Assembly: GCF_037392515.1 (NCBI RefSeq)
Contig: NC_090280.1
Span: 19,964,618-20,028,617, forward strand
DNA length: 64,000 bases
Direction: 5' to 3'
Source: Haliotis asinina
Taxonomy: Eukaryota > Mollusca > Gastropoda > Lepetellida > Haliotidae
The number at the start of each line of letters is the position of its first letter. Position 1 is the stretch's first letter. Shown here piece by piece: positions 1 to 55,912 of this stretch. The notes below the pieces were generated by a model that saw only the letters and a list, made by a program, of their open reading frames with translations, did not search any database and was not told the DNA's origin. Both the position numbers and the translations under genes were made by a program.

Positions 1-1057
1 GACCCTCACTGGAAGGGCTATGCTCATCCAGCTTATTTCCGGAAACTTCACACAGAACACAGCGTCTTTATACTCTGCGAATAGAGCTGGACTGACCCTT
101 GGGAGAGACATCATGATAGATCTTAAAGGTCGGAGTAATGTGTGTTGTGGCATTTTGAAAGATTGTGGCAGTGTTAAACAAAGCCTTTACATTTCAAAAA
201 CTACTATTTTGTCTTATTATTGTACCAATGGCATAGAGTAACCAAACCTGGACACGGTAATATCCCATACGTGCCACACAAAATGTGTAACAATATTTAG
301 TATAGGTGAGGGTAAATGTCTTGTGTTCAGGGTAGATACGTTCTGCTCGTGTCGTGTCATTTGGTATGGGAACATGAAAGAGATCCTGCAGGCCTCAAAA
401 TCAAAATCAATGTATACAAACCGAAACTACACTGTTTTGTCAAGTCTAGGAAAAGGAGGCATTTTTAGGACTTCATTTGTTTTATAGTAATATCGTGTAT
501 TTTTCATATTTTTCAAGTTGTCAATCAAACACAAAAATACGCACAGTGAAATCGACAAATCTAACCATAATTTGTTAGTAATACAAACTACGTTGTCATA
601 CTACTGGAAACTAAATCAGCACTATGGTAAATTAAATGCGTCACTCTGACTCTTGCAAGCCCAAGAGTGACCACACTGGATGGATACATCTCAGCACAAA
701 AGTCAATTCCCTAACGACGTGGATGTTGCTGGTGATTTGGCAAGCTGCTATCTCAAGTTCCAATCTGCCTTCGCTCACAGCAAAACCATTACAGAAACTG
801 TTCACTATTCGCCAGATATTGCTAAACCAATACACCAAAGCGTTTTCACCACAAGCATCAATGCAGGCTATGTGAGCAATACGCAGCATGCATATCTACC
901 AGTCTGCATCAGTCTCAATGACAGGACCAGAAATCCTAAGCCATCAACAGTGCAACTGGGCTCATACCGCAAGCAAAACCACAATGAAGTTAAACGCCAT
1001 TTTGTCAAAACAGGAGGGCTAGTCAAAAGTGTCGTTGTTCCTGTCGGCAGTTTTTAA
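1..1057 (+). pseudogene. Decayed GH86-like hydrolase paralogue (copy 0), 5' end outside the window
   Basis: Bases 1-128 match exon 2 of the three intact genes (encoding D-P-H-x-K-G-Y-A...) and end at a GT donor. They are about 11 bp shorter than the intact exon and reach a TAG near base 83, so the exon is out of frame. An intron-like stretch follows (129 to about 650). Then an exon-3 remnant (about 660-1057) keeps the W-M-D-T-S-Q-H-K start and the K-T-G-G...V-G-S-F end, but the whole catalytic barrel is missing: about 970 bp are lost between V-D-V-A-G-D-L and A-S-C-Y-L-K-F. Two further deletions (about 100 bp and 6 bp) lie in the C-terminal domain. All three exon-3 deletions keep the frame, leaving 125 open codons (680-1057). 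The exon-2 damage and loss of catalytic residues argue for a pseudogene. Exon 1 would lie upstream of the window. Confidence 0.85.
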
Positions 1058-3778: not shown

Positions 3779-6617
3779 ATGTGGCTCTCAACAAGCAGTA
3801 TGTTACTATATGTGGCAGTCATGGTTCATATGCTGTGTAATGTCAGTGGTCAATATCAAGTGACCATCTATCCGGACTTCGTCATGAAAGGAGGAAGGAA
3901 GACGTTTGATCCTGATCGCTGGAATGGTCATATGGGGTTGGATAATCCCAATATCATCCCGGACGTGAAGAAAACTGGTGCCAGGTGTGGCCGCTGGAAC
4001 AAAGGTGATATGGTCGAAGGTGCCTTTGAGAAGGTAAGTGACGAATACTCCTTATAGAGCATGACATATTTACGTTATTACCTAACGCCTGATGTCATCG
4101 CTCATATTAAGTGACCCACTCACATTCCTCCAGTGGAACAGTTTCATTTTCAAGACTCCTTATTCCTTACACGTGTCACTATCCGGACGCATGGGTTTTG
4201 ATCCACAGGCAGTGGGATATTTCTATATTCCCATGCAAAACACTCTCATACTTGCACACACTGATAAAGAACATACTCACTTCAGCAGTCTAGCATACTA
4301 GTGTTACTTTAAGTCCAAAACAGTATTATCGACAACTAACCCAATTCATCAGACGCTAACGTATAACACTATAGCGTCGGCAAGGACGGATGTGCTGTAC
4401 TTCCATCTCAGCACACACTAATATATAAACACACTCAGGTAAGCACGCTCTCTTGCACAACACTCCCACGTCAACTCACTGTAATGCATGACCCATTCGC
4501 TTCCATGACAATTCAGTCTCATGTTAAACATATTGTCTTTAAAAAAACACCGATGCATAACACTCTAATGCTGATGTACATCACTGTCACGCCGCTCTGT
4601 GCAGGCACCAGAGGACCCTCACCGGAAGGGCTACGCAGATCCAGCTTACTTCCGGAATGCACACTTCACACAGAAAATCGTTTCTAAATACTCTGCAAAT
4701 AGAGCTGGATTTGGAAGGGCCCAAGGGAGAGACATCATGCTGGATCTTCAAGGTCAGATCAATGTACACTGTATATCTTTATAGCATTTTAAAGGAAAAA
4801 GTCAGTGTTCAAAACAGAATGTAACAATGCAAAATCTCACCCTTTCCCCTAATGTGCTTCAGCTCTGGGTCGGAGGTACGATTTCGCCTTAGCTTCCATA
4901 GGGATTTGATTTTGTATTTTCTAGATTGAAATAGATTTTATTTATGGGATTAAACGTCAAACTGTCAGTGATGGTTTAGACGGGATATATTGCTCACTTT
5001 CCGCTTGAATCATGAACAATTAAGCACAAAAATAACATAAATTCAAAGCCGATAGATCAGGCCATGATTTCTGTGCAATACTAATCGTCGTGCTGTCTGA
5101 AGCTGTTTCAACACGACAATTAATTAGATACGTTGATGTGTCTCTTTGAAGGCGAAACCTGGCCACACTGGATGGACACATCTCAGCACAAAGGGAAATT
5201 CCCTAACAACGTGGATGCTGCTGCTGATATGGCTGCCATGCTGCTCAAGGCCGTCCATGATGGGAGCAAAGGGGACGGGCCACTATACTATGAACCTATC
5301 AACGAAGTCGACGGTACGTGGAAGTACAACGTCAACTGGACACAAGTTATAGCCTTCTACAAGTCCGTCAATGCAAAAGTCAAGGCTACTTTACCACATG
5401 TGAAAGTTGGAGGTCCGGCATATTCTGGTGGCATTGCGGGGGTGGACAAACACGACTTCAAGGTCTGGGGAAACCTCATGGCGTTTATGGACATGGCCCT
5501 CAAGCACCTTGATTTCATCTCATTCCACCCTTTCAGTCATATGATAATCCATGGAGATTCGTATTACTTCCAAGGTCCCACTGAAGCCCGTTTTGTGGGC
5601 ATAATAGATCTAATTGAAAGTTATGCCCATTTGAAAACCGGTAAGGATGTCCCAATCATCTGTTCAGCCTATGGTTTGGGCGGAATATCAGGAGTCAACA
5701 TGGATAAAGCTAACCCAGTGATCGATTATGGATATGTCTACCTCCAGAATGCAGAACTCTTTACCATGCTGAATCACCGTGGAGTTGTCGACAGGGCTGT
5801 GGTATTCGTGGTTGGGCACAGCAATGCTTTTGGACAAAGCAGCATTAATTACAGTCTCCTCGACAAAAACAACCACGAGAGAACCCCAGCCGAGGCCTTC
5901 CACTTCTGGGAGGTGCTTTCAAAACGAATGACGTATCTCAGAACAGACAGTCAGTACCATGGAGCTGAGAGAGTTGTGGCATCTCACGCTTTGGTGGATC
6001 AAACGTCTAAAACGGTGGTACTTCTCCTGCAGAACTTTGACAAGAAGCCGACAAAAGTCAAAGTCCAGTTTGGTCATGGATGGATGAATCCGTCCACAGC
6101 AGTCATGTCGTGTGTCCACTTGAACGCCCAAAAGGTTACCGTACGAGACAAAGAATCAACGATTCATCTCAACAATGGTGTCGTCACTCTTCCCACTGGG
6201 GCAAGCTGCTATCTGAAGCTCCACTCTGCCTTCGATTTTGCTCACAGCAAGACCATCACAGAAACTGTTCACTATGGGCCAGATATTGCCAAACCAATAC
6301 ACCAAAACGTTGTCACCACAAGCATCAATGTGGGCCATCTGAGCAATGTCCAGTACGCGTATCTACGAGTCAGTGTTAGTCTCAGTGACAAGAACGGTAA
6401 TCCTAAGCCAACGTCGGTGCAGCTGAACAGCAAGTCTCTCACTTCGTTTTACTCCCTTCATCAGCAAAACAATGATCTCTACGAAACGGCGTGGACGACG
6501 ATGCAATACCTAGTTCCTGTCTCTTTGCTGAAGCAGAACCAAAATGAGGTGAAACTCCATTTTGCCAAAACAGGAGGACGCGTGTCAACTGTCGCTGCTG
6601 TTGTCGGGAGTATCTAA
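3779..6617 (+). CDS. Secreted clan GH-A glycoside hydrolase, GH86 (agarase/porphyranase)-like, copy 1
   Basis: Three exons: 3779-4033 (255 nt), 4605-4752 (148 nt) and 5152-6617 (1466 nt). Introns are GT-AG, of 571 and 399 bp, in phases 0 and 1. The product is 622 residues. The start M-W-L-S-T-S-S was chosen because all three copies share it and it opens a signal peptide (residues 1 to about 25, ending V-S-G-Q). Exon 2 encodes P-E-D-P-H-R-K-G-Y-A-D-P. The barrel carries W-P-H-W-M-D (138-143), Y-E-P-I-N-E-V-D with candidate acid/base Glu186 on strand 4, I-S-F-H-P-F (257-262) on strand 6, and I-I-C-S-A-Y-G on strand 7, where Ala307 occupies the usual nucleophile position. Two beta-rich regions follow (about 400-622). 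Family members cleave red-algal galactans, which fits a secreted digestive protein of a grazer. The GH86 label is from memory of motifs; clan GH-A is firmer. Loss of the nucleophile could mean a pseudo-enzyme or binding protein. Confidence 0.75.
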
Positions 6618-9560: not shown

Positions 9561-11006
9561 TCCCAAAGTCTTTTCAGGTAAGATCGTACTCTTCCAAGAA
9601 CATGTCGTAAAAGATTGTAATCTTGTGAAATAGTTAGCAATAAAGCAAGAGTTTAGTTTCAACTGTGGAGCAATTTTCTGCATTCACATGTATCTTTCTG
9701 CAAATGTAATGAAATATAAAATCCTTGTAGAATTGCTTTGAACTGATGTAAATGGTCATAACGCCCTTAATATAAAAAGAAAGAAGTACAGTGTTCCCAG
9801 AAATTATGGAGAAAATCTTTGGGTCTTTTTCTAATGATGCTAAGATGGAAAAAGGGCTTTCACTACGCACTAAGCATACTAAATAAGGGAGACAACTCTT
9901 GAAGGCTTAGAAGGCAGCTCATTACGTCAAGAGTTATATCCCTTGTCTGAGCAGACGGCTTCCTGTGTTGACATGGCAGAATTTACAGCAAGAGAGAAAA
10001 GAAACCTCATTCTAGATGATTGTGAAAGGGGTGAGGCTGATGCTAAAGTGTTAGCTTGTAGACATGGTATTCCTCTGTCTACAGTATACAGAACTTTGAA
10101 GAATATTCAAACAGGAACCGGGATAGAGCACAAAGCAGGGGCAGGTCGGCCTAGGAAATTCAGTCTTGTGGATCGCCGAAGACTTGGGCAGATTGTGAGT
10201 AGGGGCAAATTGAAAAGTGTTGAGAACATCAGAAATGAAATGATTAGCAGAGGAAGTCCTCAGGTATGCAATGAAACAGTTAGGCAGGAATTACAGAGAC
10301 TTAATTGGGTGAAAAAACGTGGCATTCCCTCGCCGTTGATGAAATATGCACAAAAGGTAAAACGTTTAAACTGGTGTCGGGCTCATGAAAATCAAGATTG
10401 GGATAATGTTTTCTTTTCGGATGAAAGTTCTGTTTGGCTTTTCCCTAATTGTGTGAAAATTTGGACCAAAGATACTGTCAAACCTATCTACCAGCGACCA
10501 AAACATAGCCCGAAGTTTCACATGTGGGGTGGCATATCGGCTCGCGGAGTGACGCCATTGTGTGTTTTCACGGGAAACTTGACAAAAGAAAGATACGTTG
10601 ACATTCTAAATGGTCACCTTCTTCCGACAGCACAAACATTGTATGAAGATGATTGGATTTTCCAGAATGATAGTGACCCAAAACACACTGCGCGCTACAC
10701 AAAACAGTGGTTGTCGGGCGAAAATGTTCAAGTTTTAGACGCCCTAACTTCACCTAGACGGGAGGTTGAATAGGCCCAATTCAATCAATCGGCTGGTCAC
10801 GCCAAGCCCTGTGCATGGTGAATACTTTTGCACGTAGTACTTTGATTATATGATCTTGGCTTTTTTGGCTTTCAATGTACAATTTTTTGTGTACTAATTT
10901 GGCTAGAGTCCCATGCCAGAAGGCGGTGGCTCATGGACCAATCTGGCAATATTAACCTCTGAATTCTGTGTTTCCTCAGAAATGTGTCGAGGGCGAACCA
11001 GCCTGG

Positions 11007-11039: not shown

Positions 11040-14000
11040 TATCCATTCAACTCAGTAGACAGATACACAAATAAATGATGCAACAGCACAAGTACATAAT
11101 AAGACAAAAGTTCATATGGATAAAAGTTATACATACTGGATATATGGCAGCAGTGGTGACCATTTTCTGTCAAATGGTAACATTTTATTATTCTTAGTAG
11201 CAATAAACTTTTCAGTTTTGAAAATATCACCCAGTATTTTTAGAAATGCATCCAGTGATAACTTGGTGTTTTTAATACTTGATACATGAATGTATTTTTT
11301 ACCAGCAAGAAGTATATGGTTCATTAAGTCAGTATTATTTCCACCAATTAAGACTGTATATTTTGTCAGGGTAAATGTTTCTGTTGTCTTATTGTCAATA
11401 TATTCTTTCAGTTTCAACCAGAATGTTTTCACACATTCACATTCCCAATAAATATGTATCAAATTTTCAGACACTAAGTTACAAAAAGAGCAAAGTTCAT
11501 CATCAACTAATTTCATTTTCAGTAATTCTTTTTTTGTGTATATAATATTATGAATAAATTTAAATTGAAAGTCAATCAATTTAGTATCTTTTGTGCATCT
11601 TCTATAATCTTTAAAAATATATTCCCATGGGATTACAGTGTCAAAGAGTTGTTGCCATTTTTCACATGTAGAAGGGAAAGTTTCAGTACTTATAAGCTTA
11701 TCATAGAAATATCTTGACCTCTTTGGTGCTGAAAGTAAACATATCAGTGGTGTGCTGAGATAGTGATTATGAACAATCAATAGATTATTTCTAATAGTAT
11801 CTTTCCATTTTCTTGGTATATTTGAAAGAACCTGGTAGTAATCAAGAACTGTGCCTTTGATTTTGTAAGTTTTCTTAAGTTCATTAAATGACAAAATACC
11901 TTGATCATTACACAAGTCTCTTATAGAGTGAATACCCTTAAAATACCAATGTCTTATAATAAAATTACTATTTTGGAATTGATGGTTGAACCAAAGGGGT
12001 TCAGATAAGATTTGATTAATATCTGTAAAATCAGTTTTATGTGTTCTATAAAATATTCCCCATGCTGCCAACACATCTTTCCAATAGGGATTAATTATTT
12101 TCACATAATTTTCAATGTTGGCTCCAAGCAGAAATATATCCTTGAATGGAAAGGTACTAGGGCTAGTGTTTTTATTTTGGAGATATTTATTTAATACTGA
12201 CAGTTTTAATGAGTTAATGAATACCTCTATATTAACCATTCTTAGTCCCCCTTCTTCATATTTTCTAATAAGTGTTGTTCGCTTTATCTTATCGCGCTTA
12301 TCATTCCAGATGAATTTATAAAATATATTGTTTAATTTATCAATGAATTCCTTTGGAGGATTTGGGAGTGAAGTGAATATATGCACTAATGATGAGAGTG
12401 CTAAAGTTTTAATAACCGTTATTTTCCCTATTAATGTCAAATTTCTTTTTCTCCAATTCCCAAGAGTTCTATTAATAATTTCTAGTCTTTTTCTTGTATT
12501 AATTACCCAAAGGTTATTCAACTTAGGATTAAGCTTTATTCCTAGTACATCAAAATCCCCACTGTGCCAATCAAGCTTAAGATCCTGACATAACATCATG
12601 TTACTACCTGCCATTGAGCCTATCCATATTGCTTTAGTCTTCTCTACGTTTATTTTTAAACCAGACATTTTGTAGAAATTATTTAGGGTGTCAATTGCTA
12701 TGCTTAAGCTTTCTTCACATCCATCAAGAAATAATTCAGTATCATCTGCATATTGTCCAATTTTATGTTCAGTATTATTCAACGTCATTCCTTTTATTGC
12801 ACTGTTGTTATGGATCATTGTTCCTAAAATTTCTGCCACTAAAAGGAATATGTAGGGAGAGACCGGGTCGCCTTGTCTACAGCCCCTTTCATTGTGAAAA
12901 AACTGAGATAGATGACCATTTTGTATAACACAAGATGTAGGATCATTGATTAATATTTTGATCCATTTTTCCATATTAGGTCCAAAGCCAAATTTTCCTA
13001 TTGTTAGAATTATAAATTCTTTAGAGACAGTGTCGAAAGCTTTTTCAAAGTCAATAAGTAACAACAGTCCCTTTTTACCCTGTAATTTTGCTTCAAACAT
13101 AATATCATATACCAGTCTAATGTTCTCACTAATACATCTTCCAGGGATAAAACCTGTCTGAGTTTCATGAATTAGTGTATTCAAAGTTTTTTTAATTCTA
13201 TTGGCTATACATGTACTGAGTATTTTATACACAGAATTTAGAAGGGAAATTGGGCGCCAGTTTTTTAACAACTGTCTATTTTTGTTAGCTTTTGGAATGC
13301 ATGTGATGACGCCTCTTTTGATTGTTGGACTTAACATATTTTGCCTGAATGTTTCTGATATATATCTACAAACCCAAATATGGAGATCTTTCCAGAAAAA
13401 TTTAAAGAATTCTATTGGGAAACCATCTATTCCTGGGCTTTTGTTATTTTTCATTGATTTAACAGCTTGTGTTATCTCATCTATTGTAATGTCACCCTCA
13501 AGAGTTTCAGCTTCAACAGTTGTTAGTTTTGGTGTAATAATATCATTGAATATCTCAATATATTTACTTGCTATTGTACCACCTGATGCATATAGATTTT
13601 CATAAAATTTTCTCTGCTCATATAGAATAGCCTTACCATCTGATATTACTTCTCCTTTATCATTAATGACACTATTCATAAGCTTACTGGCATAATTTCT
13701 GTTTTCGAGATGACAGAAATATTTGGTTGTTTTTTCTCCTTCCTCGTACCACTGAATTCTATTTCTTATTTGTATACCTCTTATTTCAGCTTCTTTTAAT
13801 TTTTCAAATTCTAGTTTACATTTGGATAGTTCAGCAAGTTTAGTTTCACACACTGTTTGGAAATTTTCTCTGATTTCTTCTTCCATTGCAGAGATTGTTT
13901 TTTCTAAATTTTTCATTTTTTCAGTCTTGATTTTTTTTAGGTAGGAAGAGAATGATATTGTTTTCCCCCTCACTTTCATCAAAAATGTTTCTAAAAACAA

Positions 14001-14191
14001 TGTGTCACTTATTTTAAGTTGTAATTTTGAGTCCTCAGTATGACCTAGTTCATCCTCAGTGCAGTTACAGTATCCTAATTTTGTTTCAAGAAGCATGTCC
14101 TTGACCATATTTACATAGTCTTGATTATATAGTAATGATGTATTTAATTTCCAGTATCCACCACCCCGTTCCTTATGAAGTTCACTGGAAA
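11009..14191 (-). mobile_element. 5'-truncated L1/Tx1-like LINE inside Nimb A
   Basis: On the minus strand the element ends in a 29-base poly(A), seen as T at 11009-11037. It is flanked by the target duplication AGCCTGGCATTT (11000-11011 and 14192-14203). The uninterrupted target can be read in Nimb C near 31738-31752. The body lacks the endonuclease and starts in the linker before the reverse transcriptase, as in 5'-truncated L1 insertions. It is the innermost of three nested insertions and therefore the youngest of them. Confidence 0.9.
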
Positions 14192-14201
14192 AGCCTGGCA
14201 T
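11127..14201 (-). CDS. L1/Tx1-like reverse transcriptase (endonuclease missing)
   Basis: The frame stays open for 1024 codons. The first few codons (M-P-G) come from the target site itself. The element's own sequence begins near G-G-G-Y-W-K-L-N-T-S-L-L, the L1 linker. A coiled-coil-like stretch follows (residues about 75-140), then R-I-Q-W-Y-E-E-G-E-K. The reverse transcriptase carries N-K-S-P-G-I-D-G-F-P, the motifs L-L-I-D-F-E-K-A-F-D and Q-G-D-P-V-S-P-Y, and the catalytic Y-A-D-D. The C-terminal domain has the L1-type G-G-L-R-M-V and a cysteine/histidine motif (C-S-F-C...H-I-Y-W-E-C). No stop occurs in more than 3 kb, which suggests a recent insertion. Without an endonuclease domain it cannot be an autonomous element. 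Confidence 0.85.
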   Translation of the reverse strand: MPGFSSELHKERGGGYWKLNTSLLYNQDYVNMVKDMLLETKLGYCNCTEDELGHTEDSKLQLKISDTLFLETFLMKVRGKTISFSSYLKKIKTEKMKNLEKTISAMEEEIRENFQTVCETKLAELSKCKLEFEKLKEAEIRGIQIRNRIQWYEEGEKTTKYFCHLENRNYASKLMNSVINDKGEVISDGKAILYEQRKFYENLYASGGTIASKYIEIFNDIITPKLTTVEAETLEGDITIDEITQAVKSMKNNKSPGIDGFPIEFFKFFWKDLHIWVCRYISETFRQNMLSPTIKRGVITCIPKANKNRQLLKNWRPISLLNSVYKILSTCIANRIKKTLNTLIHETQTGFIPGRCISENIRLVYDIMFEAKLQGKKGLLLLIDFEKAFDTVSKEFIILTIGKFGFGPNMEKWIKILINDPTSCVIQNGHLSQFFHNERGCRQGDPVSPYIFLLVAEILGTMIHNNSAIKGMTLNNTEHKIGQYADDTELFLDGCEESLSIAIDTLNNFYKMSGLKINVEKTKAIWIGSMAGSNMMLCQDLKLDWHSGDFDVLGIKLNPKLNNLWVINTRKRLEIINRTLGNWRKRNLTLIGKITVIKTLALSSLVHIFTSLPNPPKEFIDKLNNIFYKFIWNDKRDKIKRTTLIRKYEEGGLRMVNIEVFINSLKLSVLNKYLQNKNTSPSTFPFKDIFLLGANIENYVKIINPYWKDVLAAWGIFYRTHKTDFTDINQILSEPLWFNHQFQNSNFIIRHWYFKGIHSIRDLCNDQGILSFNELKKTYKIKGTVLDYYQVLSNIPRKWKDTIRNNLLIVHNHYLSTPLICLLSAPKRSRYFYDKLISTETFPSTCEKWQQLFDTVIPWEYIFKDYRRCTKDTKLIDFQFKFIHNIIYTKKELLKMKLVDDELCSFCNLVSENLIHIYWECECVKTFWLKLKEYIDNKTTETFTLTKYTVLIGGNNTDLMNHILLAGKKYIHVSSIKNTKLSLDAFLKILGDIFKTEKFIATKNNKMLPFDRKWSPLLPYIQYV

Positions 14202-14358
14202 TTGATCTGTTTGATTTAACAGCTTTTCAAGTTTTTATTGGCTGGAGTATAACATCCCTGTAGCCCTGGTGGAACAGACTGGTTTCCGCTGCAACACCGT
14301 CCTCGTTGACACTCCATGGTGGGTGGGGAGCAGGGTTGTCGAACACTTTTCCTACATA

Positions 14359-15370
14359 ATGGCTACCTCCATTCCTTCTGGTTCATCGATGAATAAACGC
14401 CGGTATGTTGAATCTTCGTCATCTGATGAAGGCTCATCTGACTTAGTTGACCTCGTGGCCGAGATTTATTGTCATCTCATCTGCTGATGAAAACCCTCTC
14501 ATGCTGAACCCCTTTGCTATTTCCAAGGGCATTCACGGTGTCTGTGGAGAAGTTAAGGATGTAACGCGACTTCGAAATGGCTCTCTGTTGGTGGAATGTG
14601 CGCGTAAGCAACAATCAGACAATCTGTTGAAATTAAAACAGTTTGTGAATACTCCCGTTGTTGCCTCTGTACACAGAACTCTGAATTCCTGTAGAGGCAT
14701 TGTCAGAGATAGGGCTCATTGTCTTTCTGACATGACTGAGGAGGACATTGTTACTGAGCTTCACAATCACGCTGTAAAGCAATTTTCAAAAAAGAAAGAC
14801 GATGGCACAACAATCAAGCTCAATACGTATGTGTTCACGTTTTCACATTCCGTCCTTCCAAAATCTGTAAAAGCTGGATATTTCAACATTGGGGTGGAGG
14901 TGTATGTTCCGTCTCCTCTCCGATGTTTCAAATGTCAAAAATTTGGTCATGGGGCCACGTTCTGCCGCAACAGCTCGGTATGTTCCCGTTGTGGTAGTGC
15001 ACACGAACTTTCTGAGTGTGCTAACTGTGATGGAGACCACTTAGCCTCATCTAAATCCTGTCCTTTTTATGAACGCGAGACAAAAATTCAACATATCAAA
15101 CACACTAACAATATCTCGTATTCTTCTGCAAGAAAGTTGGTACCCCTTTCTACCACTTCATCAAATTTATACTCAAATGCAGTCTCTTCTCGAGCTCTTA
15201 TTTCCAGACCTCCTATGACATCAAAATCATGTCAAACATCCTTATCTTGGGTCAATCAACAAGTCATAATCAGTGACAATATTCAGACTTCTCAGGTTCT
15301 GATTGATGTATCTACATCAACTTCTCAGACAGAGGCTGTAGCATCACTGCCGTCGGTAGATTTATCTTAG
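14359..15370 (+). pseudogene. Nimb A ORF1 (gag-like, zinc knuckle), damaged
   Basis: Same gene as the open ORF1 of copy C (31908-32996). Relative to copy C it has a one-base insertion near 14448 that shifts the frame, a short deletion near 14770 and an 18-bp deletion near 15020 that removes part of a knuckle. It also has an early TAG at 15368-15370. The knuckle C-F-K-C-Q-K-F-G-H-G-A-T-F-C is still readable. The product would bind the element RNA as a nucleic-acid chaperone. Confidence 0.85.
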
Positions 15371-15611
15371 CAGCACAATGTATCGCAGAGGAGAAATCAC
15401 AGAGTCAGAGTAAATCTTAAAAAAATGGCAAAAAGGAAAAGAAACAATCCAAAAGGACCAGAACCATCCAGCATTTGGAGGTGCCTTCCTCAGAGTCTTC
15501 CCCTATCACGGTTCACAACCAATTTGAACCTTTAGAGATGGAGGTCAATCCGTCACTCCCAGTTAGTGGAGCTAGACCCCACTCCAAATCACGAACTCCA
15601 ATTGAACCTCC

Positions 15612-18600
15612 ATGAGCCGCTCAACTAACATCATCCAGTAGAATTGTAGAGGACTAAGGAACAATTTTTGTTTTACAGTTACTGATACAGGACTTCAAAC
15701 CATCGGCATTTTGCTTGCAAGAAACCTATTGTAGAGACACTGACCTTATGGATATAAGGCAATATGATTCTTATAATTATTTTTCTCCTCCAGGACCTAG
15801 AGCTACAGGGGGTTCTTCAATTTTGGTGAGGCAGGGTGTTATACATAGCCCTGTCCCCCTGAATACACTACTTCAAGCTGTTGCTGTCAGGCTGACTTTG
15901 AATATTGTTTTCACTTTGTGCTCAATTTATGTATCACCGTCTTTTACTCTACAACAAACAGATATTCAGGCTCTTTATGACCAGCTCCCTAAGCCATGTA
16001 TCATTATGGGTGACTTTAACGGCCATAATCCACTTTGGGGTAGTTCTGATACAAACAGAAATGGGAGGATATTAGAAGATTTTCTTTCAAACAATGAACT
16101 ATGTCTATTCAACAATAATTCGAAAACGTACTTACATCCTGGTACAGGTACATATTCTTCTCTTGCTTTGTCACTCACTGATGCAGATCTCTTAAATGAA
16201 TTCGAATGGTCAGTTCACAATGATCTGTGTGGCAGTGATCATTTTCCGACCATTCTTCAGGCAATAGCTCCAGGTGATATCCCTCCATCCTCAAGATGGA
16301 ACTTCAGTAAAGCTAACTGGCCTTTGTTCAAACTACTTTGCAAGGACAAATTAATTCCTGATCGTTTTATTGATGATCCTGATTCAGTCCAATTATTCTC
16401 TGATGAGCTCAACAAAATAGCTGATGAATGTATTCCTAGGTACTCTATAAATCCACACATACGTAAACCATTGTTTACTAATGAATGCAAACAAGCTAGG
16501 AAAGCACGGAAAAAAGCTGAACATTATTTCCGCTGCCACCCAATGGTGCATAATTTAATTAAATAAACATAAAGTGTTAAATGCTAAAGCAAGGCGCACA
16601 TTTAAGCAAAACAAACGCCAGTCTTGGCAAAAATATGTTTCGAAAATAAATTCCCGAACGCCGATGTCCAAGGTATGGAACATGATCCAGAGAATAAAAG
16701 GTAAAGGTACCAAATCAACCATACATCATCTCAAAACTGGGGATCAGTTGTTAACAGATAATTCTGATATTGCAAACAAACTGGGAGAAACTCTTGCCCA
16801 ACACTCTTCCTCGTCTAATTATGTTCCCAAATTTCAAAAATATCAAAAACAGCAGGAAAAGAACAAAATCAATTTTCATTCAGATAATGGAGAAGATTAT
16901 AATGAAATATTTTCTATTCATGAGCTTCATACTGCTCTTGAACAATCTCACGATACTGCTACAGGAGCTGATAACATTCATTAGCAACTCTTGAAACACT
17001 TACCTGAATCCTGTTTAGAGACACTGTTGAATATTTTTGATGATATTTGGACATCTCGTAAATTTCCTCCATCCTGGCGTAAAGCCATTATTGTACCCAT
17101 ACCTAAGACGAAAGGGAAATATTTACAAACAGAGAAAGATAAACCTGGCCGTGACCATACAGATCCCTCTAATTATAGGCATATTTCCTTGACTAGCTGC
17201 GTTTGCAAAACCATGGAACGTATGGTCAATAACCGACTAACTTGGTACTTAGAATCTAATAATTTAATCACAAATATACAATGTGGTTTTCGTAAAAATC
17301 GCAGTACAATAAATCATTTAATTCGATTGGAATCATTTGTTAAGAACGCCATCATTAACAAGCAGCATGCAGTGTCAATCTTTTTTGATAAAAGCTTATG
17401 ATACGACATGGAAGCATGGCATTTTAAAAGATTTACATGATTTTGGTTTACGGGGTCGTTTGCCTCAGTTTATATCCGAGTTTTTAACTGACAGACAATT
17501 TCAGGTAAGCGTGGGTTCTACCCTGTCTGATCATTATACTCAGGACCAGGGCGTCCCAGAAGGCAGTATTTTGTCTGTCACACTCTTTAGTATTAAAATT
17601 AACAGTCTATCAAAGGTTTTAAATGATTCGATTGATGGATCACTCTTTGTTGATGATTTTAATATTTCTTGTCGTGGAAAAGATATGCATACTATTGAAC
17701 GACAACTACAGTTATGTTTAAATAAAATAGATAAATGGTGTCTCGAAAACGGCTTTAAATTTTCTAAATCCAAAACTAATTGTATACATTTCTGCCGCAT
17801 ATACAAACCACATAGAGACCCTGAAATATTTTTAAATGACACTCCCATCAAAGTTGTAAAGGAGGCAAAGTTCTTGGGTATACTTTTTGACTCCCATTTA
17901 ACTTTTCTTCCACACATTAAATACCCAAAAAATAAATGCTTGAAGGCACAAGATCTATTAAAAGTTGTTTCCAGTTCCAAGTGGGGAGGGGATCAGTCTA
18001 CCCTCCTACACCTGTATCGATCACTGGTTCGCTCGAAAATTGATTACGGCTCCATTGTGTATGGTGGAGCCTGCAAAAGCAACCTAAAAATATTAGATTC
18101 GGTCCATCATCAAGGTCTAAGACTCTGTCTTGGCTCCTTTCGAACTTCAACTGTTGACAGCCTGTATGTCGAGGCTGATGAACCATCTCTTGAACAGCGA
18201 CGTATAAAATTATCTTTACAGTATATAACAAAACAGCATTCGAATAAATCAAATCCTGCATATAACTGTGTTTTCAATCCTCTGTATGAAGATTTATACA
18301 ATAAGAAATCTTCTCTTGTTCCGCCTCTTAGTTTAAGAATGAAACCACTTATTACTGCCACCGGCATTGAGCTGGATAATATAGCTCCTTCCTGTCTTCT
18401 TTCTTCTCCTCCTTGGCAGTTGGTTAGGCCACAGGTTGACCTAACATTAACTACATTTAAAAAATCAGAAACTAATAAATTACAATACAAACAAGAATAT
18501 AATCAATTAAAACATAAATATAGCAGTTATAAATCCTCATTTACAGATGGGTCCAAGGACGGTGGTGCAGTAGCTGGTGCCACTGTCATTGGATCCAGAA

Positions 18601-19334
18601 CAATATCTTCTAGATTGCCCGACAACAGCTCTATTTTCACAGCTGAAGCTAACGCCATATTAACGGCTCTCAAATATATTCAAGGACATCCAAAACATAA
18701 CCAGTATATAATCTATTCGGACTCTCTTTCTTACCTTCAGGCTATTAAAAACACTGCTTGCAAACATCCATTTTTAATTGAAATTATTGAATTGCATAAT
18801 GAACTTGCTACTGGCCAATACGACATCGTCTTTTGTTGGTTACCCAGTCACGTTGGCATTTCTGGTAACACGATGGCTGATCTTGCTGCCAAGGCAGCAC
18901 TCAACAAATCTGTGACACCACTTCTAATTCCTTACACTGATTATAAAGCTACCATTAGATCGCATATCCGTGATCTGATGCAGAAGAAGTGGGACACCCA
19001 AGTGGGCATAAATAAATTACATGCAATAAAACCTTCTGTTGGTTATACCTACTTGGGTTGTCAGTCCAGATTTGAAGAGGTCATCATGCGGCGATGTCGT
19101 ATTGGCCACACGAGATATACTCATGAATACCTATTGAAAGGTGAGGATCCTCCGTTCTGCATCCCTTGTGATGAAATAATCACGGTCAAGCATGTCTTGC
19201 TTGACTGTGTCGAATATTCCATCACAAGGGATACCTATTTCAAATCACGAACAATGAAGGATCTTTTTGATAATATAAGTTCTCATTTAATCATTCAATT
19301 TTTACAAGAATTAGATTTGTTAAATGACTTGTAA
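15612..19334 (+). pseudogene. Nimb A ORF2 (endonuclease-RT-RNase H), damaged
   Basis: Endonuclease motifs G-D-F-N-G-H and S-D-H-F-P are visible. RT has S-L-F-V-D-D, RNase H has T-D-G-S-K-D-G-G, T-A-E-A-N-A, Y-S-D-S and S-H-V-G-I-S-G-N, and the C-terminus has C-R-I-G-H-T...C-I-P-C. From 17337 to the natural stop at 19334 the frame is open. Disabling changes include a TAG in the first conserved endonuclease motif (15642-15644), a frameshift near 16565 and a TAG at 16981-16983 (both shared with copy C), and a 5-bp deletion near 17390. A 12-residue insert (T-K-G-K-Y-L-Q-T-E-K-D-K) follows V-P-I-P-K at about 17113-17148. Confidence 0.85.
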
Positions 19335-20528: not shown

Positions 20529-23500
20529 ATGTGGCTCTCAACAAGCAGTGCGTTACTATGTGTGACAGTCCTGGTTTACATGTTATGTCTCGTCAGTGGT
20601 CAATATCAAGTGACCATCTATCCGGACTTCGTCATGAAAGGAGGAAGGAAGACATTTGACCCTGATCGCTGGAATGGTCATATGGGGCTGGATAATACGG
20701 ATGTCATCCAGTACGTGAAGAAAACTGGTGCCAGGAGCGGCCGCTGGAACAAAGGCGATACAGACAATGGTGCCTTTGTAAAGGTAACTGGTGCAGTCAT
20801 AATATATTGTATATGTTCTCGGGTAGCACAGGGCACCTGAAGTCATCACTGATATTATGTAATCCAGTCACACAGTATTCACAAATATTTTACCTTTTCT
20901 TCCAATCGAATATTATCGTTTTCAAGAGTCGTTAACCTGACGTAAACGTTTCTATACGTTAAAGTATAGGTTTGGGGTGACACACGTTCAACTCTGGTGA
21001 ACGCATTAGTTTTCATACATGCAGCGATTTGTTTCTGAACTCCCATGCGAAACACTCTCACGCTGGCAATGAATAATGTAAAACACGCACGCTTCAGTAT
21101 AGTCTAATACAATCATACTAACGTACAGCGCACTAAGGTTAGCTCATTACTATGCACAACGGACTCGGGTCAGCACACTCTGATACACAAAACAAGCTCT
21201 TCAGCACAGACAGATATGCATCCCTTCCTCCACAGCGCTGGGCCGTGGGGTATCCTAGTGCTTAAAGCGTTTGCTCTTCACGCCGAAGACACGGGTTCGA
21301 TTCGCCACACTGGTACAATGTGTGAAGCCCATTTCCTATATCCTCCGCCACTACAGCACATGCCGACTTACAACAAATCGGCACACCCTGATGAACAACG
21401 CACCTTAACACACGACAAATCTCACCACACACCGATGTATAAACACTCACGTTAACGCCAACCGAGGTACATCACTGTCATACTGCATTGTACAGGCACC
21501 AGAGGACCCCCACCGGAAGGGCTATGCCGATCCAGCTTACTTCCAGAATGCGCACTTCACTCAGAATATAGCTTCTAAATATTCTGCAAATAGAGATGGA
21601 TACGGGAGGACCCGTGGGAGAGAAATCATGATGGATCTTCGAGGTTAGAGTGTTCAACATGTCTTTTAACAGTGCAGTGACTAACATTCCCCTTAATATC
21701 GTAACTATGCCAAACACAAATAGAAATAATAGTTGATAGACAAGTTGATTATAACATGTAACGTGTTCAATATAGATGAAGATAAAGAAGGTCTTGTGGC
21801 CAGGGAACATAATCATCCTCTTATATTCAGTGTGTCTCTCAGACATCAAAATTGGTGAATGCAAATCTAGTCTAGTCTACATCGTTTTGGCAACTTTACA
21901 TTTCTGAAGTTTTAGCTCTTTGGCAAAGTTTTCCTCAGTTTCCAGTCGGATTTGATTACGTATATTTCCAGATACATATATCTAAACCACTATGACTGCA
22001 GTCATGGTACTAATGGTTTTTACGTTGTCTAAACGGGACATGGATAGCTGGGCAGCACACATTTTCTATCCTTTGAATCAAAGGCATTGGCCTGAAATTC
22101 AAAATCATAAATTCAGTGAGACAGATCTGGCCAAGATCTGTGAGCAATGCAAAACTGTTCCGTACAGTTTGAAACTTTTACAGCAGTTAATTGCATCCAT
22201 GTGTCTCTTTGAAGCTATGGACTGGCCACACTGGATGGACACATCTCAGCACAAAGGGAAATTCCCTAACAACGTGGATGCTGCTGCTGATATGGCTGCC
22301 ATGCTGCTCAAGGCTGTCCATGATGGAAGCAAAGGGGACGGGCCACTATACTATGAACCTATCAACGAAGTCGATGCTATGTGGAAATACGACGTCAGCT
22401 GGACACAAATTACAGCCTACCACAAGTCCGTCAATACAAAAGTCAAGGCTACTTTACCACATGTTAAAGTTGGAGGTCCGGCATATTCTGGTGGCATTTC
22501 GGGGGTGGACAAACATGACTTCAAGGTCTGGGGATATCTCAAGGAGTTTATGGACATGGCACTAGAGCACCTTGACTTTATCTCATTCCACCCTTTCAGT
22601 AATATGATAATCCATGGAGATTCGCATTACTTCCAAGGTCCCACTGAAGCCCGTTTTGTGGGCATAATAGATCTAATTGAAAGTTATGCCCATTTGAAAA
22701 CCGGTAAGGATATCCCAATCATCAGTTCAGCCTATGGTTTGGCCGAAATATCAGGAGTCAACATGCAGAAAGCTAACCCAGTGATCGATTATGGATATGT
22801 CTATCTCCAGAATGCAGAACTCTTTACCATGCTGAATCACCGTGGAGTTGTCGACAGGGCTGTGGTATTCCTGGTAGCGTTTGGCGATTATTTCGGACAA
22901 AGCAGCATTAATTACAGTATATTAGACAAAAACAACCACGAGAGGACCCCAGCCGAGGCCTTCCACTTCTGGGAGGTGCTTTCAAATCGAATGACATATC
23001 TCAGAACAGACAGTCAGTACCATGGAGCTGAGAGAGTTGTGGCATCTCACGCTTTGGTGGATCAAACGTCTAAAACGGTGGTACTTCTCTTGCATAACTT
23101 TGACAAGAAGCCAACAAAGGTCAAGGTTCAGTTTGGTCATGGATGGATGAATCCGTCCACAGCAGTCATGTCTTGTGTCCACTTGAACGCCCAAAAGGTT
23201 ACTGTCCGAGACAAAGAATCAACGATTCATCTCAACAATGGTGTCGTCACTCTTCCCACTGAAGCAAGCTGCTATCTCAAGTTCCACTCTTCCTTCGATT
23301 TTGCTCACAGCAAGACCGTCACAGAAACTATTCACTATGGGCCAGATATTGCTAAACCAATACGCCAAAACGTTGTCACCACAAGCTTCAATGCGGGCCA
23401 TCTCAGCAATGTCCAGTACGCGTATCTTCGAGTCAGTGTTAGTCTCAGTGACAAAAACGGTAACCCTAAACCAACATCGGTGCAGCTGAACGGCAAGTCT

Positions 23501-23680
23501 CTCACTTCGTTTTACTCCCTTCATCAACAAAATAAGGGCGATTACATAACCGCGTGGACGACTATCGAATATCATGTTCCAGTCTCGTGGTTGAAGCAGA
23601 ACCAAAATGAAGTTAAGCTCCAATTCGAAAAAACAGGCGGGCGAGTATCAACTGTTGCTGCTGTTGTCGGGAGTTTGTAA
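20529..23680 (+). CDS. Secreted clan GH-A glycoside hydrolase, GH86-like, copy 2
   Basis: Exons 20529-20783, 21496-21643 and 22215-23680 have the same lengths (255/148/1466 nt) and phases as copy 1. Introns are 712 and 571 bp and largely unlike those of copies 1 and 3; intron 1 contains a tRNA-derived SINE. The 622-residue product has a signal peptide (M-W-L-S-T-S-S-A-L-L...). It keeps the acid/base motif P-I-N-E-V-D and I-S-F-H-P-F, but has I-I-S-S-A-Y-G at strand 7 (Ala codon 22730-22732). Copy-specific changes cluster near the expected active-site face: A-M-D-W-P at the exon 2/3 junction and V-A-F-G-D-Y-F-G where copies 1 and 3 have V-G-H/Y-S-N-A-F-G. It is the most diverged of the three intact copies in the barrel. 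Its 3' end and flank are closest to copy 3. An in-frame extension upstream of exon 3 (from 21992) is intron, not coding. Confidence 0.75.
21237..21350 (+). repeat. tRNA-derived SINE, head part, in intron 1 of copy 2
   Basis: The sequence has a pol III B-box-like GGGTTCGATTCGC (about 21293-21305) preceded at about the right distance by an A-box-like TAGTGCTTAAAGCG. It continues into GTGTGAAGCCCATTTC, the SINE body. The 3' part is missing. The match at 24290-24362 looks like the 3' part of the same SINE type. Absent from copies 1 and 3. Confidence 0.6.
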
Positions 23681-29944: not shown

Positions 29945-30122
29945 GATAAACCTTGACCTGCCTATGTTCCTCACCAAATACACATCACGATCGTCCTCTA
30001 TTTTACACTCAGGGAAACGTGGCTCTCAACAAGCAGTGTGTTACTACAGGTTTCAGTCCTTGTTTACACGTTATGTCAGTGGTCAAGATCAAGTGACCAT
30101 CTTTCTGGACTTCGTCATCAAG
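29945..30122 (+). pseudogene. Exon-1 relic of a hydrolase copy with its 5' flank
   Basis: The conserved upstream box (29945-29966) is followed by TTTACACTC and a degraded exon 1 (30018-30122). This matches W-L-S-T-S-S, the signal peptide, the S-G-Q segment and D-F-V, but the ATG is lost (GAAACGTGG versus ACCATGTGG) and the frame shifts inside the signal peptide. Homology stops at 30122. No exon 2 or 3 follows. The flank from about 29820 also aligns with the upstream flanks of copies 2 and 3. Confidence 0.8.
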
Positions 30123-30560
30123 GTTACTAACCGTTCGTTCTTTTTTTTTAGGCCATCGGGCCATGTACATCGTGAACATTAACATATAATAATATAGTGA
30201 TAGTGACAATGATTACGCATTGCGGAGAGACAAACAATGTTTAACATATTTTGCTATATTTAGAATAATTTCGTGATCTTTACTGCATACTAATAATTTA
30301 TATGAATAATTATAAGTAGTGGGGTTATCAGAAAATCAAGATGGTATATAGTTAGCCTTTATCAGATTATACACAAAGAAAACGTGTAGACTACTTCAAC
30401 TACCTTACCATTACAATTCTTACTGAAACATATGCGTTTATCAATGTCATGCTTACGGCCAATATTTGTTTGAATAGGCAACCCATCTAACCTAAACAAA
30501 AAGAAACATCTCTTCAACTCCCACCTTTTAATATTCATGATATAATATTCTGTATCAATC
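30123..30560. other. Intergenic stretch, nothing recognised
   Basis: AT-rich sequence between the exon-1 relic and the decayed LINE. No ORF, repeat or RNA could be supported. Confidence 0.4.
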
Positions 30561-31055: not shown

Positions 31056-31907
31056 TCACTGGCTACAATTCAATTGTGTTCGTCCTAAGTTGCGTACCCG
31101 AGGTCGTTACAGACGTGGTGTTACTGTATTCGTAAGAGATGGTTTAGTCAGCAACAGCTTAATATGTAGACTGTATGACAGCTTCCATAAATGTTTTGCT
31201 CTTCTTCTCCACTCATCATTATTTTCATGGGACTCTGATATTATTTTGATCTTACCGTATTTATCTCCAGAAAAGGCACCCGTGGCGAGCCACCTCCTCG
31301 TGGTGGGTGCTGGGTAACGCTAAGTGCTCGCCAACCCCCCGTTGTGGACTCGGGGGCATATTTGGTTCACCAATCCGTTAGCCGTGGGTTGTGGCCCTGT
31401 GTCGGTGGAGGAGGGGATCCTGGTGGTTGAGGGTAACAGGGGCCTGCAACCGTGTCCCTGTTGCTCAACGCGCCACTTTGGCCCTAACTTCACCTAGACG
31501 GGAGGTTGAATAGGCCCAATTCAATCAATCGGCTGGTCACGCCAAGCCCTGTGCATGGTGAATACTTTTGCACGTAGTACTTTGATTATATGATATTGAC
31601 TTTTTTTGGCTTTCAATGTACAATTTTTTGTGTACTAATTTGGCTAGAGTCCCATGCCAGAAGGCGGTGGCTCATGGGCCAATCTGGCAATATTAACCTC
31701 TGAATTCTGTGTTTCTTCAGAAATGTGTCGAGGGCGAACCAGCCTGGCATTTGATCTGTTTGATTCAACAGCTTTTCAAGTTTTTATTGACTGGAGTATA
31801 ACATCCCTGTAGCCCTGGTGGAACAGACTGGTTTCCGCTGTAACACCGTCCTTGTTGACACTCCATGGTGGGTGGGGAGCAGGGTTGTCGAACACTTTTC
31901 CTACATA

Positions 31908-32996
31908 ATGGCTACCTCCATTCCTTCTGGTTCATCGAAGAATAAACGCCGGTATGTTGAATCTTCGTCATCTGATGAAGGCTCATCTGACTTAGTTGAC
32001 TCGTGGCCGAGATTTATTGTCATCTCATCTGCTGATGAAAACGCTCTCAAGTTGAACCCCTTTGCTATTTCCAAGGGCATTCACGGTGTCTGTGGAGAAG
32101 TTAAGGATGTAACGCGACTTCGAAATGGCTCTCTGTTGGTGGAATGTGCGCGTAAGCAACAATCAGACAATCTGTTGAAATTAAAACAGTTTGTGAATAC
32201 TCCCGTTGTTGCCTCTGTACACAGAACTCTGAATTCCTGTAGAGGCATTGTCAGAGATAGGGCTCATTGTCTTTCTGACATGACTGAGGAGGAAATTGTT
32301 ACTGAGCTTCACAATCAAGGGGTCATCTCTGTAAAGCGATTTTCCAAAAAGAAAGACGATGGCACAACAATCAAGCTCAATACGTATTTGTTCACGTTTT
32401 CACATTCCGTCCTTCCAAAATCTGTAAAAGCTGGATATTTCAACATTGGGGTGGGGGTGTATGTACCGTCTCCTCTCCGATGTTTCAAATGTCAAAAATT
32501 TGGTCATGGGGCCAAGTTCTGCCGCAACAGCTCGGTATGTTCCCGTTGTGGTAGTGCACACGAACTTTCTGAGTGTAGGAATGGCATTAAGTGTGCTAAC
32601 TGTGATGGAGACCACTTAGCCTCATCTAAATCCTGTCCTTTTCATGAACGCGTGACAAAAATTCAACATATCAAACACACTAACAATATCTCGTATTCTT
32701 CTGCAAGAAAGTTGGTACCCCTTTCTACCACTTCGTCAAATTTATACTCAAATGCAGTCTCTTCTCGAGCTCTTGTTTCCAGACCTCCTATGACATCAAA
32801 ATCATGTCAAGCATCCTTATCTTGGGTCAATCAACAAGTCATAATCAGTGACACTATTCAGACTTCTCAGGTTCTGATTGATGTATCTACATCAACTTCT
32901 CAGACAGAGGCTGTAGCATCACTGCCATCGGTAGATTTATCTTCGGCAGCACAATGTATCGCAGAGGAGAGATCACAGAGTCAGAGTAAATCTTAA
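31908..32996 (+). CDS. Nimb C ORF1, gag-like zinc-knuckle protein
   Basis: An open frame of 362 codons from M-A-T-S-I-P-S-G-S-S. The frame is also open upstream to a GTG at 31818, but the first ATG is at 31908. The N-terminal part is charged (K-N-K-R-R-Y-V-E-S-S-S-S-D-E-G). A conserved core follows (L-K-L-N-P-F-A-I-S-K-G), then S-V-K-A-G-Y-F-N-I-G-V. Three CCHC-type knuckles follow: C-F-K-C-Q-K-F-G-H-G-A-K-F-C, C-S-R-C-G-S-A-H-E-L-S-E-C and C-A-N-C-D-G-D-H. The C-terminal region is rich in Ser/Thr. This is the family's RNA-binding protein that coats the element RNA. It is the only fully open ORF1 of the Nimb family in this window. Confidence 0.85.
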   Translation: MATSIPSGSSKNKRRYVESSSSDEGSSDLVDSWPRFIVISSADENALKLNPFAISKGIHGVCGEVKDVTRLRNGSLLVECARKQQSDNLLKLKQFVNTPVVASVHRTLNSCRGIVRDRAHCLSDMTEEEIVTELHNQGVISVKRFSKKKDDGTTIKLNTYLFTFSHSVLPKSVKAGYFNIGVGVYVPSPLRCFKCQKFGHGAKFCRNSSVCSRCGSAHELSECRNGIKCANCDGDHLASSKSCPFHERVTKIQHIKHTNNISYSSARKLVPLSTTSSNLYSNAVSSRALVSRPPMTSKSCQASLSWVNQQVIISDTIQTSQVLIDVSTSTSQTEAVASLPSVDLSSAAQCIAEERSQSQSKS

Positions 32997-33187
32997 AAAA
33001 ATGGCAAAAAGGAAAAGAAACAATCCAAAAGGACCAGAACCATCCAGCATTTGGAGGTGCCTTCCTCAGAGTCTTCCCCTATCACGGTTCACAACCAATT
33101 TGAACCTTTAGAGATGGAGGTCAATCCGTCACTCCCAGTTAGTGGAGCTAGACCCCACTCCAAATCACGAACTCCAATTGAACCTCC

Positions 33188-53075: not shown

Positions 53076-55912
53076 ATGTGGCTCTCAACAAGCAGTATGT
53101 TGCTATGTGTGGCAGTCATGGTGTATATGCTATGTAATGTCAGTGGTCAATATCAAGTGACCATCTATCCGGACTTCGTCATGAAAGGTGGAAGGAAGAC
53201 GTTTGATCCTGATCGCTGGAATGGTCATATGGGGTTGGATAATCCCAATATCATCCCGGACGTGAAGAAAACTGGTGCCAGGTGTGGCCGCTGGAACAAA
53301 GGTGATATGGTCGAAGGTGCCTTTGAGAAGGTAACTGGTGAAGTCTCCTGATAGAGCATGACATATTTACGTTATTACCTAACGCCTGATGTCATCGCTA
53401 ATGTTAAGTGACCCACTCACATTCCTCCAGTGGAACAGTTTCATTTTCAAGACTCCTTATTCCTTACACGAGTCACTAGCCGGACGCATGGGTTTTGATC
53501 CACAGGCAATGGGATATTTCTATATTCCCATGCAAAACACTCTCATACTTGCACACACTGATATAGAACATACTCACGTCAGCACAGTCTAGCATACTAA
53601 TGTTACTTTAAGTCCAGCACAGTATTACCGACAACTAACCCAATTCATCAGACGCTAAAGTATAACACTATAGCTTCGGCAAGGACGGATGTGCAGTACT
53701 TCCATCTCAGCACACACTAATATACACAGTCAGGTAAGCACGCTCTCTTGCACAACACTCCCACGTCAACTCACGGTAATGCATGACCCATTCGCTTCCA
53801 TGACAATTTAGTCTAATGTTAAACATATTGTCTTAAAAAAAACACCGACGCATAACACTCTAATTCTGATACCTTCTGATGTACAACACTGTCACTCCGC
53901 TTTGTGCAGGCACCAGAGGACCCTCACCGGAAGGGCTATGCAGATCCAGCTTACTTCCGGAATGCACACTTCACGCAGAAAATAGTTTCTAAATACTCTG
54001 CAAATAGAGCTGGATTTGGAAGGGCCCAAGGGAGAGACATCATGCTGGATCTTCAAGGTCAGATCAATGTATATCTTTATCGCATTATAAAAAAGGAAAA
54101 GGTCAGTGTTCAAAACAGAATGTAATAGAGCAAAATCTCACCCTTTCCCCTAATGTGCTTCAGTTCTAAGTCGGAGGTACGATTTCGTCTGAGCTTCCAT
54201 AGGGATTTGATTTTGTATCTTCTAGATTGAAAATAGATTTCATTTTTGGGATTAAACGTCAAATTGTCAGTGATGGTTATGCGTTATATATTTCTCACTT
54301 TCCGCTTGAATCATGAACAATTCAGCACAAAAACAACCTGAATTCAAAGTCGACAGATCTGATCTGTGAGCAATACTATTTGCCATACTGTCTGAAGCTG
54401 TGTCAACACGACAGTTAATTAGATACGTTGATGTGTCTCTTTGAAGGCGAAACCTGGCCACACTGGATGGCCACATCTCAGCACAAAGGGAAATTCCCTA
54501 ACAACGTGGATGCTGCTGCTGATATGGCTGCCATGCTGCTCAAGGCCATCCATGATGGGACCAAGGGGGACGAGCCACTATACTATGAACCCATCAACGA
54601 AGTCGACGGTACGTGGAAGTACAACGTTAACTGGACACAAGTTATAGCCTACCACAAGTCCGTCAATGCGAAAGTCAAGGCTACATTACCACATGTGAAA
54701 GTTGGAGGTCCGGCATATTCTGGTGGCATTTCGGGGGTGGACAAACACGACTTCAAGGTCTGGGGAAACCTCAAGGAGTTTATGGACATGGCCCTCAAGA
54801 ACCTTGACTTCATCTCATTCCACCCTTTCAGTAATATGATAATCCATGGAGAATCGCATTACTTCCAAGGTCCCACTGAAGCCCGCTTCGTGGGCATAAT
54901 AGATCTAATTGAAAGTTATGCCCATTTGAAAACCGGTAAGGATATTCCAATCATCTGTTCAGCCTATGGTTTGGCTAAAGTATCAGGAGTGAACATGGAG
55001 AAAGCTAACCCACTAATCGATTATGGATATGTCTACCTACAGAATGCAGAACTCTTTACCATGCTGAATCACCGTGGAGTTGTCGACAGAGCTGTGGTAT
55101 TCGTGGTTGGGTACAGCAATGCTTTTGGACAAAGCAGCATTAATTACAGTATATTAGACAAAAACAGCCACGAGAGGACCACAGCTGAGGCCTTCCACTT
55201 CTGGCAGGTCCTTTCAAAACGAATGACGTATCTAAGAACAGACAGTCAGTACCATGGAGCTGAGAGAGTTGTGGCATCTCACGCTTTGGTGGATCAAACG
55301 TCTAAAACGGTGGTACTTCTCCTGCATAACTTTGACAAGAAACCGACAAAGGTAAAGGTCCAGTTTGGTCATGGATGGATGAATCCGTCCACAGCGATCA
55401 TGTCCTGTGTCCACCTGAACGCCCAAAAGGTTACTGTACGAGACAAAGAATCAACAGTTCATCTCAACAATGGTGTTGTCACTCTTCCCACTGAGGCAAG
55501 CTGCTATTTAAAGTTCCACTCTTCCTTCGATTTTGCTCACAGCAAGACCATCACAGAAACTATTCACTATGGGCCAGATATTGCTAAACCAATACACCAA
55601 AACGTTGTCACCACAAGCTTCAATGCGGGCCATCTGAGCAATGTCCAGTACGCGTATCTACGAGTCAGCGTCAGTCTCAGTGACAAGAACGGTAACCCTA
55701 AACCAACATCGGTGCAGCTGAATGGCAAGTCTCTCACTTCGTATTACTCCCTTCATCAACAAAATAAGGATGATTACATAACCGCGTGGACGACTATGGA
55801 ATATCATGTTCCAGTCACTTTGCTAAAGCAGAACCAAAATGAAGTTAAGCTCCATTTTGCCAAAACAGGCGGACGAGTGTCAACTATCGCTGCTGTTGTC
55901 GGGAGAATCTGA
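53076..55912 (+). CDS. Secreted clan GH-A glycoside hydrolase, GH86-like, copy 3 (mosaic)
   Basis: Exons 53076-53330, 53910-54057 and 54447-55912 (255/148/1466 nt). Introns of 579 and 389 bp are nearly identical to those of copy 1. The 622-residue product keeps the signal peptide, W-P-H-W-M, P-I-N-E-V-D (acid/base Glu186) and I-S-F-H-P-F, and has I-I-C-S-A-Y-G with Ala at the expected nucleophile site (codon 54962-54964). From about residue 203 onward many diagnostic residues switch from copy 1 type to copy 2 type: Y-H-K-S-V, I-S-G-V-D, S-N-M-I-I-H-G, F-H-S-S-F-D-F, T-E-T-I-H-Y, D-Y-I-T-A-W-T-T. The 3' flank is also of copy 2 type. This makes the gene a recombinant. Unique changes include M-A-T-S for M-D-T-S and E-R-T-T-A-E-A-F for E-R-T-P-A-E-A-F. 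The frame is fully open, so it is probably expressed unless the copia insertion has removed distant control elements. Confidence 0.75.

Follow-up and report, generated by a model that had tools for sequence, protein, structure and literature searches.

Can a protein that has lost the catalytic nucleophile of its glycoside hydrolase family still cut sugars, and if not, why is it kept? The question is raised by a window of 64,000 nucleotides of the Haliotis asinina genome, analysed over its full length (RefSeq assembly GCF_037392515.1, contig NC_090280.1, positions 19,964,618 to 20,028,617 of the forward strand). It contains three intact genes (copies 1-3) related to the GH86 beta-agarases and beta-porphyranases, and residue 307 is Ala in all three. 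Copies 1-3 are read here, with a probability of about 0.66, as secreted, non-hydrolytic pseudo-enzymes derived from GH86, which would bind galactan or act in regulation. Secretion is probable, judging by eye from an N-terminus that resembles a signal peptide.

The nucleophile position in a GH86 fold

The Ala codons that the initial annotation had read were recovered in the three copies (GCC in each; positions calculated from the exon starts, Table 1). The spliced copies likewise contained the acid/base motif INEV with Glu186 (N-E on strand 4), the strand-6 motif HPF and the strand-7 contexts CSAYG, SSAYG and CSAYG (copies 1, 2 and 3, respectively). Ala307 was placed on the GH86 nucleophile by a phmmer alignment and by two MAFFT alignments. 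In a comparison with characterised enzymes, as the initial annotation had suggested, it was aligned with Glu322 of the Bacteroides uniformis GH86 agarase (BuGH86), whose E322Q mutant is inactive. A scan centred on a single Microscilla enzyme yielded 131 bacterial relatives, of which the best 80 were used (79 distinct loci); together with five plasmid records they provided 84 rows, some of them near-identical. The strand-7 motif was absent from the scan patterns, so the scan did not select for Glu. Column 307 contained Glu in 83 of the 84 rows, as did the acid/base column 186; the remaining row (L080, 198 residues, truncated) was gapped at both. Three of the four published BuGH86 residues (Thr82, Gln138 and Glu322) matched the plasmid gene L001, in which Met396 is Glu. 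Since the phmmer and both MAFFT alignments agree, the predicted fold is that of GH86 and the bacterial rows have Glu, the presence of Ala at the expected nucleophile site is beyond chance.

The family assignment was examined by sequence and by fold. In copy 1, PF18040 (BPA_C) passed its cut-off (29.2 bits against 26.2) and the sandwich model PF18206 scored below its own (18.8 bits, cut-off 27). In a phmmer search of the PDB with copy 1, 5ta0/5ta1 were matched at E 2.3e-12 and no other entry at E ≤1; a profile of the three copies added weak matches only (E ≥0.7). The structure was then predicted (predicted local distance difference test, pLDDT, 75.4; predicted template modelling score, pTM, 0.80). 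GH86 chains ranked first in fold searches (top seven in Foldseek, top five in VIA-align), a result favoured by the 58 bacterial GH86 rows in the input alignment of the model; a model from copies 1-3 only reached a pLDDT of 32.8 and was not used. GH39 gave 14 bits in copy 1 (Pfam cut-off 26), and three Glu-bearing sister barrels gave 24.9-27.3 bits for GH5 (cut-off 23.5) and 23.0-25.7 bits for GH39 (cut-off 26). Such scores are expected within a shared clan, and the PDB sequence and fold searches put GH86 first. Homology and modelling together establish copies 1-3 as GH86 homologues whose predicted fold is of the GH86 type.

The likeness to GH86 beta-agarases and beta-porphyranases (BuGH86, 5TA0/5TA1/5TA5; Aga86A_Wa, 8H97; BpGH86A, 4AW7) covers the entire predicted chain, that is, the barrel and two beta-sandwich domains, and includes the BPA_C domain and the acid/base N-E. 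Copies 1-3 differ from these enzymes by Ala in place of the nucleophile Glu, by Phe in place of the strand-6 Tyr and by the presence of introns; identity in structural alignments is 18-21%.

Distribution and origin of the Ala copies

PF18040 was matched at 62 places in the genome of the window and in none of 14 control genomes. A barrel query matched at least 114 places, some being fragments of one gene. The GH86-like family lies in clusters on contigs C1, C3, C5, C6 and C15, and most copies read retain both catalytic Glu residues. Residue 307 was read in the 55 last exons longer than 400 residues (52 outside and 3 inside the window): 50 have Glu and five have Ala. These exons were drawn from 59 outside places and the three window copies, leaving out L135 (exactly 400 residues, Glu) and six shorter, unreadable ones; 31 further family places, most of them on C6 and unreadable at 307, stand outside the counts. 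Glu186 was retained in 50 of the 52 outside exons and gapped in two. Glu was also found at 307 in all of five further relatives (C1:20.969-20.993 Mb, four; C6, one). In one of the five, L155, the reading frame is broken shortly past the nucleophile site. Some Glu copies are damaged (L139 has a stop within the domain match and L121 is broken around the acid/base position). Activity of the Glu paralogues is presumed.

The five Ala loci are copies 1-3, L151 and L142. L151 (C1:19959859-19963534), just upstream of the window, has an open Ala-bearing last exon; its domain match ends about 1.3 kb before the window start, and exon 3 only was found in the stretch examined. L142, on contig 3, has an open last exon with 44% identity. 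A sequencing or assembly slip as the source of the Ala was ruled out, as five separate loci on two contigs have it (codon GCC in four, GCT in one).

A quick tree built from 71 rows united the five Ala loci in one group (Shimodaira-Hasegawa-like approximate likelihood ratio test, SH-aLRT, 97) and set all 55 animal rows together against the 16 bacterial rows (100). In a careful tree of 31 rows, from which the three motif regions had been removed, the Ala group was recovered with support of 91/89 and was present in 90% of 200 bootstrap trees. It joined a Glu cluster at C1:20.956-20.993 Mb (L141, L144 and L152-L154) with support of 98/93. These nearest relatives differ from the Ala group by the motifs S-E-F/Y-G, N-E-P and H-S-Y and by tighter selection. 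Among the copies read, the loss of the nucleophile is confined to one clade of five. The statement of the initial annotation that the family is a conserved pseudo-enzyme is thus not supported for the family as a whole, and what stands is nucleophile loss in this one group. Ala is the derived state, since bacteria and the remaining animal copies have Glu, and a single loss would be the simplest account.

An animal-encoded GH86 was not found described in the titles and abstract openings of the literature on molluscs, gastropods, abalone and invertebrates. In a pattern scan of viral contigs, 26 stretches fitted the pattern and none was a true relative. The donor of the animal family was not traceable with a long animal branch and a bacterial sample built around one Microscilla enzyme.

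Selection and candidate function

Pairwise dN/dS values (nonsynonymous/synonymous distances) were calculated on the whole coding sequence with the Nei-Gojobori method (NG86) and were 0.067/0.225 for copies 1-2, 0.035/0.163 for copies 1-3 and 0.057/0.234 for copies 2-3. A branch-class codon model (357 codons, 10 genes) put the dN/dS ratio (omega) of the C1 Ala clade at 0.316 and that of the Glu sister cluster at 0.164; it was our own implementation with a fixed tree and one optimisation start per model, and gene conversion among copies could bias omega. An omega of 1 was rejected for the Ala clade (twice the log-likelihood difference, 2 delta lnL, 64.6). An omega of 0.018 on the deep branch was not used, the branch lengths being saturated. 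The C1 Ala clade is under purifying selection, as the initial annotation had argued from exon lengths and open frames.

Because the nucleophile has been lost and the branch is nevertheless maintained by selection, the Ala proteins probably bind or regulate rather than cut. Without a strand-7 carboxylate, they would be unable to form the glycosyl-enzyme intermediate through which retaining hydrolases of clan GH-A work, and the sugar would not be cut. A saccharide-binding cleft would be retained, and the proteins might act as galactan-binding (lectin-like) or regulatory partners beside paralogues with an intact catalytic site; they might, for instance, present substrate or serve as decoys that absorb inhibitors.

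The pattern of changed positions was compared between the groups. In exon 3, 34 positions are conserved at ≥90% in both 82 bacterial rows and the 50 Glu paralogues. All five Ala loci depart from the conserved residue at four of these: Tyr262Phe, Glu307Ala, Gly542 (Ser, with one gap) and Arg545. The barrel holds only the first two. The strand-6 H-x-Y motif of clan GH-A has a Tyr that contacts the nucleophile, so the losses of Tyr262 and Glu307 are plausibly coupled. Many other bacteria-conserved columns are altered in the window copies; the Glu paralogues lack most of these too, so they were set aside as not specific to the Ala loci.

Three results weigh against a maintained binding or regulatory protein. 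Selection is looser in the C1 Ala clade than in the Glu sister cluster (equality rejected, 2 delta lnL 14.3), which leaves room for slow decay. Among the 125 exon-3 positions conserved at ≥94% in Glu paralogues, 24 are altered throughout the five Ala loci. Retention of the residues with which bacterial GH86 enzymes bind sugar is not clear, Gln138 of BuGH86 being aligned with Glu, Met and Glu in copies 1-3.

The first two of these results bear on the best-surviving alternative, to which we give about one chance in six: that the Ala clade was freed from selection and its copies are on the way to pseudogenes. At least three relics in or near the cluster (two in the window, Table 1, and one with stops at C1:20031620-20032457) and an omega twice that of the sister cluster are in line with decay. 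Neutrality was nevertheless rejected, the five last exons are open, including the divergent one on another contig, and 64 of the 125 family-invariant positions are retained in all five loci.

It is unlikely, to a very slightly greater degree, that the Ala proteins are still enzymes, using another group as nucleophile or a direct (inverting) attack by water, with the substrate either unchanged or new. Glu182, Asn185, Glu186 and His260 are retained in all five loci, and copies 1-3 also have Arg72; a dead protein would have no need to retain these residues. Purifying selection also suits an enzyme. Glu279 (all five loci; 46 of 50 Glu paralogues) is poorly placeable in the model, as are Asp372 and residue 377, which lie in the badly modelled loop 357-380 after strand 8. 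However, Asp372 is also present in five sister copies that have the nucleophile Glu, and Tyr262 has been lost as well. A displaced nucleophile was not found when exon 3 was searched for acids that the five Ala loci share and that none of the nearest Glu copies read has. This search returned only Asp300, Asp467 and Asp547, all off the catalytic face by the model: Asp300 sits just ahead of strand 7, at the end that points away from the active site; Asp467 and Asp547 lie in the C-terminal domains. The use of another carboxylate, which the initial annotation had offered as an alternative, has therefore little support.

That Ala arose twice, in the C1 cluster and separately on contig 3, is improbable: support for one group once the motif columns are removed is good and not decisive, but the full quick tree supports one group and both lineages have Glu-Pro before I-N-E, H-P-F and Tyr262Phe.

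Two known systems resemble a non-hydrolytic GH86 protein retained beside active paralogues. Heparanase-2, a GH79 pseudo-enzyme of clan GH-A, has a small residue (Gly381) for the nucleophile, retains its acid/base Glu262 and has an active paralogue in the genome, according to excerpts of PMC12406646. It belongs to another GH family, and the same excerpts report binding and inhibition, which for copies 1-3 are only conjectured. The inactive GH28 proteins of leaf beetles belong to a herbivore multigene family of polysaccharide hydrolases in which active members stand beside inactive ones under purifying selection, and they affect fitness, as far as the consulted portion of PMC6549527 describes; their substrate is pectin, and they are not clan GH-A barrels acting on galactans. 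It is tentatively proposed that an animal GH86 family of scores of genes yielded a stable non-catalytic branch of secreted galactan lectins, or of decoys or regulators of active paralogues, as a counterpart of heparanase-2 in the digestion of red-algal sugars. A few lineages are known to have pseudo-enzymes of polysaccharide digestion, whose roles are mostly unsettled. A nucleophile-less branch and its Glu sister cluster in one genome make a paired comparison of binding, cutting and regulation possible. The 62 BPA_C places and at least 114 barrel matches would amount to a repertoire for red-algal galactans larger than expected in an animal.

Gene models and neighbouring sequence

Copies 1-3 were spliced in silico. 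Each has exons of 255 + 148 + 1466 bases and GT-AG introns and encodes 622 residues with no internal stop. Copy 2 is 87% and copy 3 is 93% identical to copy 1.

Table 1. Positions, in the window, of the GH86-like exons, catalytic codons and relics
Feature	Positions	Strand	Remarks
Copy 1 exon 1	3779..4033	+	255 bases, GT donor; hydrophobic N-terminus, signal-peptide-like by eye; barrel start with conserved Arg72
Copy 1 exon 2	4605..4752	+	148 bases
Copy 1 exon 3	5152..6617	+	1466 bases including stop; most of barrel with both catalytic positions, beta-sandwich, BPA_C domain
Copy 1 Glu186, acid/base position (N-E)	5304..5306	+	codon
Copy 1 Ala307, nucleophile position	5667..5669	+	codon GCC
Copy 2 exon 1	20529..20783	+	
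Copy 2 exon 2	21496..21643	+	
Copy 2 exon 3	22215..23680	+	
Copy 2 Ala307	22730..22732	+	codon GCC
Copy 3 exon 1	53076..53330	+	
Copy 3 exon 2	53910..54057	+	
Copy 3 exon 3	54447..55912	+	
Copy 3 Ala307	54962..54964	+	codon GCC
Decayed copy	1..1057	+	pieces of exon 2 and exon 3; about 317 internal residues gone (including strand 7); one stop
Relic, exon 1 only	30019..30191	+	

The introns of copy 2 (20784-21495 and 21644-22214) match the introns of copies 1 and 3 only in short patches, at about 68-74% identity. As the synonymous distance between exons is only about 0.2 per site, gene conversion limited to the exons is suspected among the copies. Long open frames lie between the copies (9883-10773; 11127-14234, minus strand; 14447-19334; 31791-36918) and, by eye, resemble a transposase and reverse transcriptases of the long interspersed nuclear element (LINE) type.
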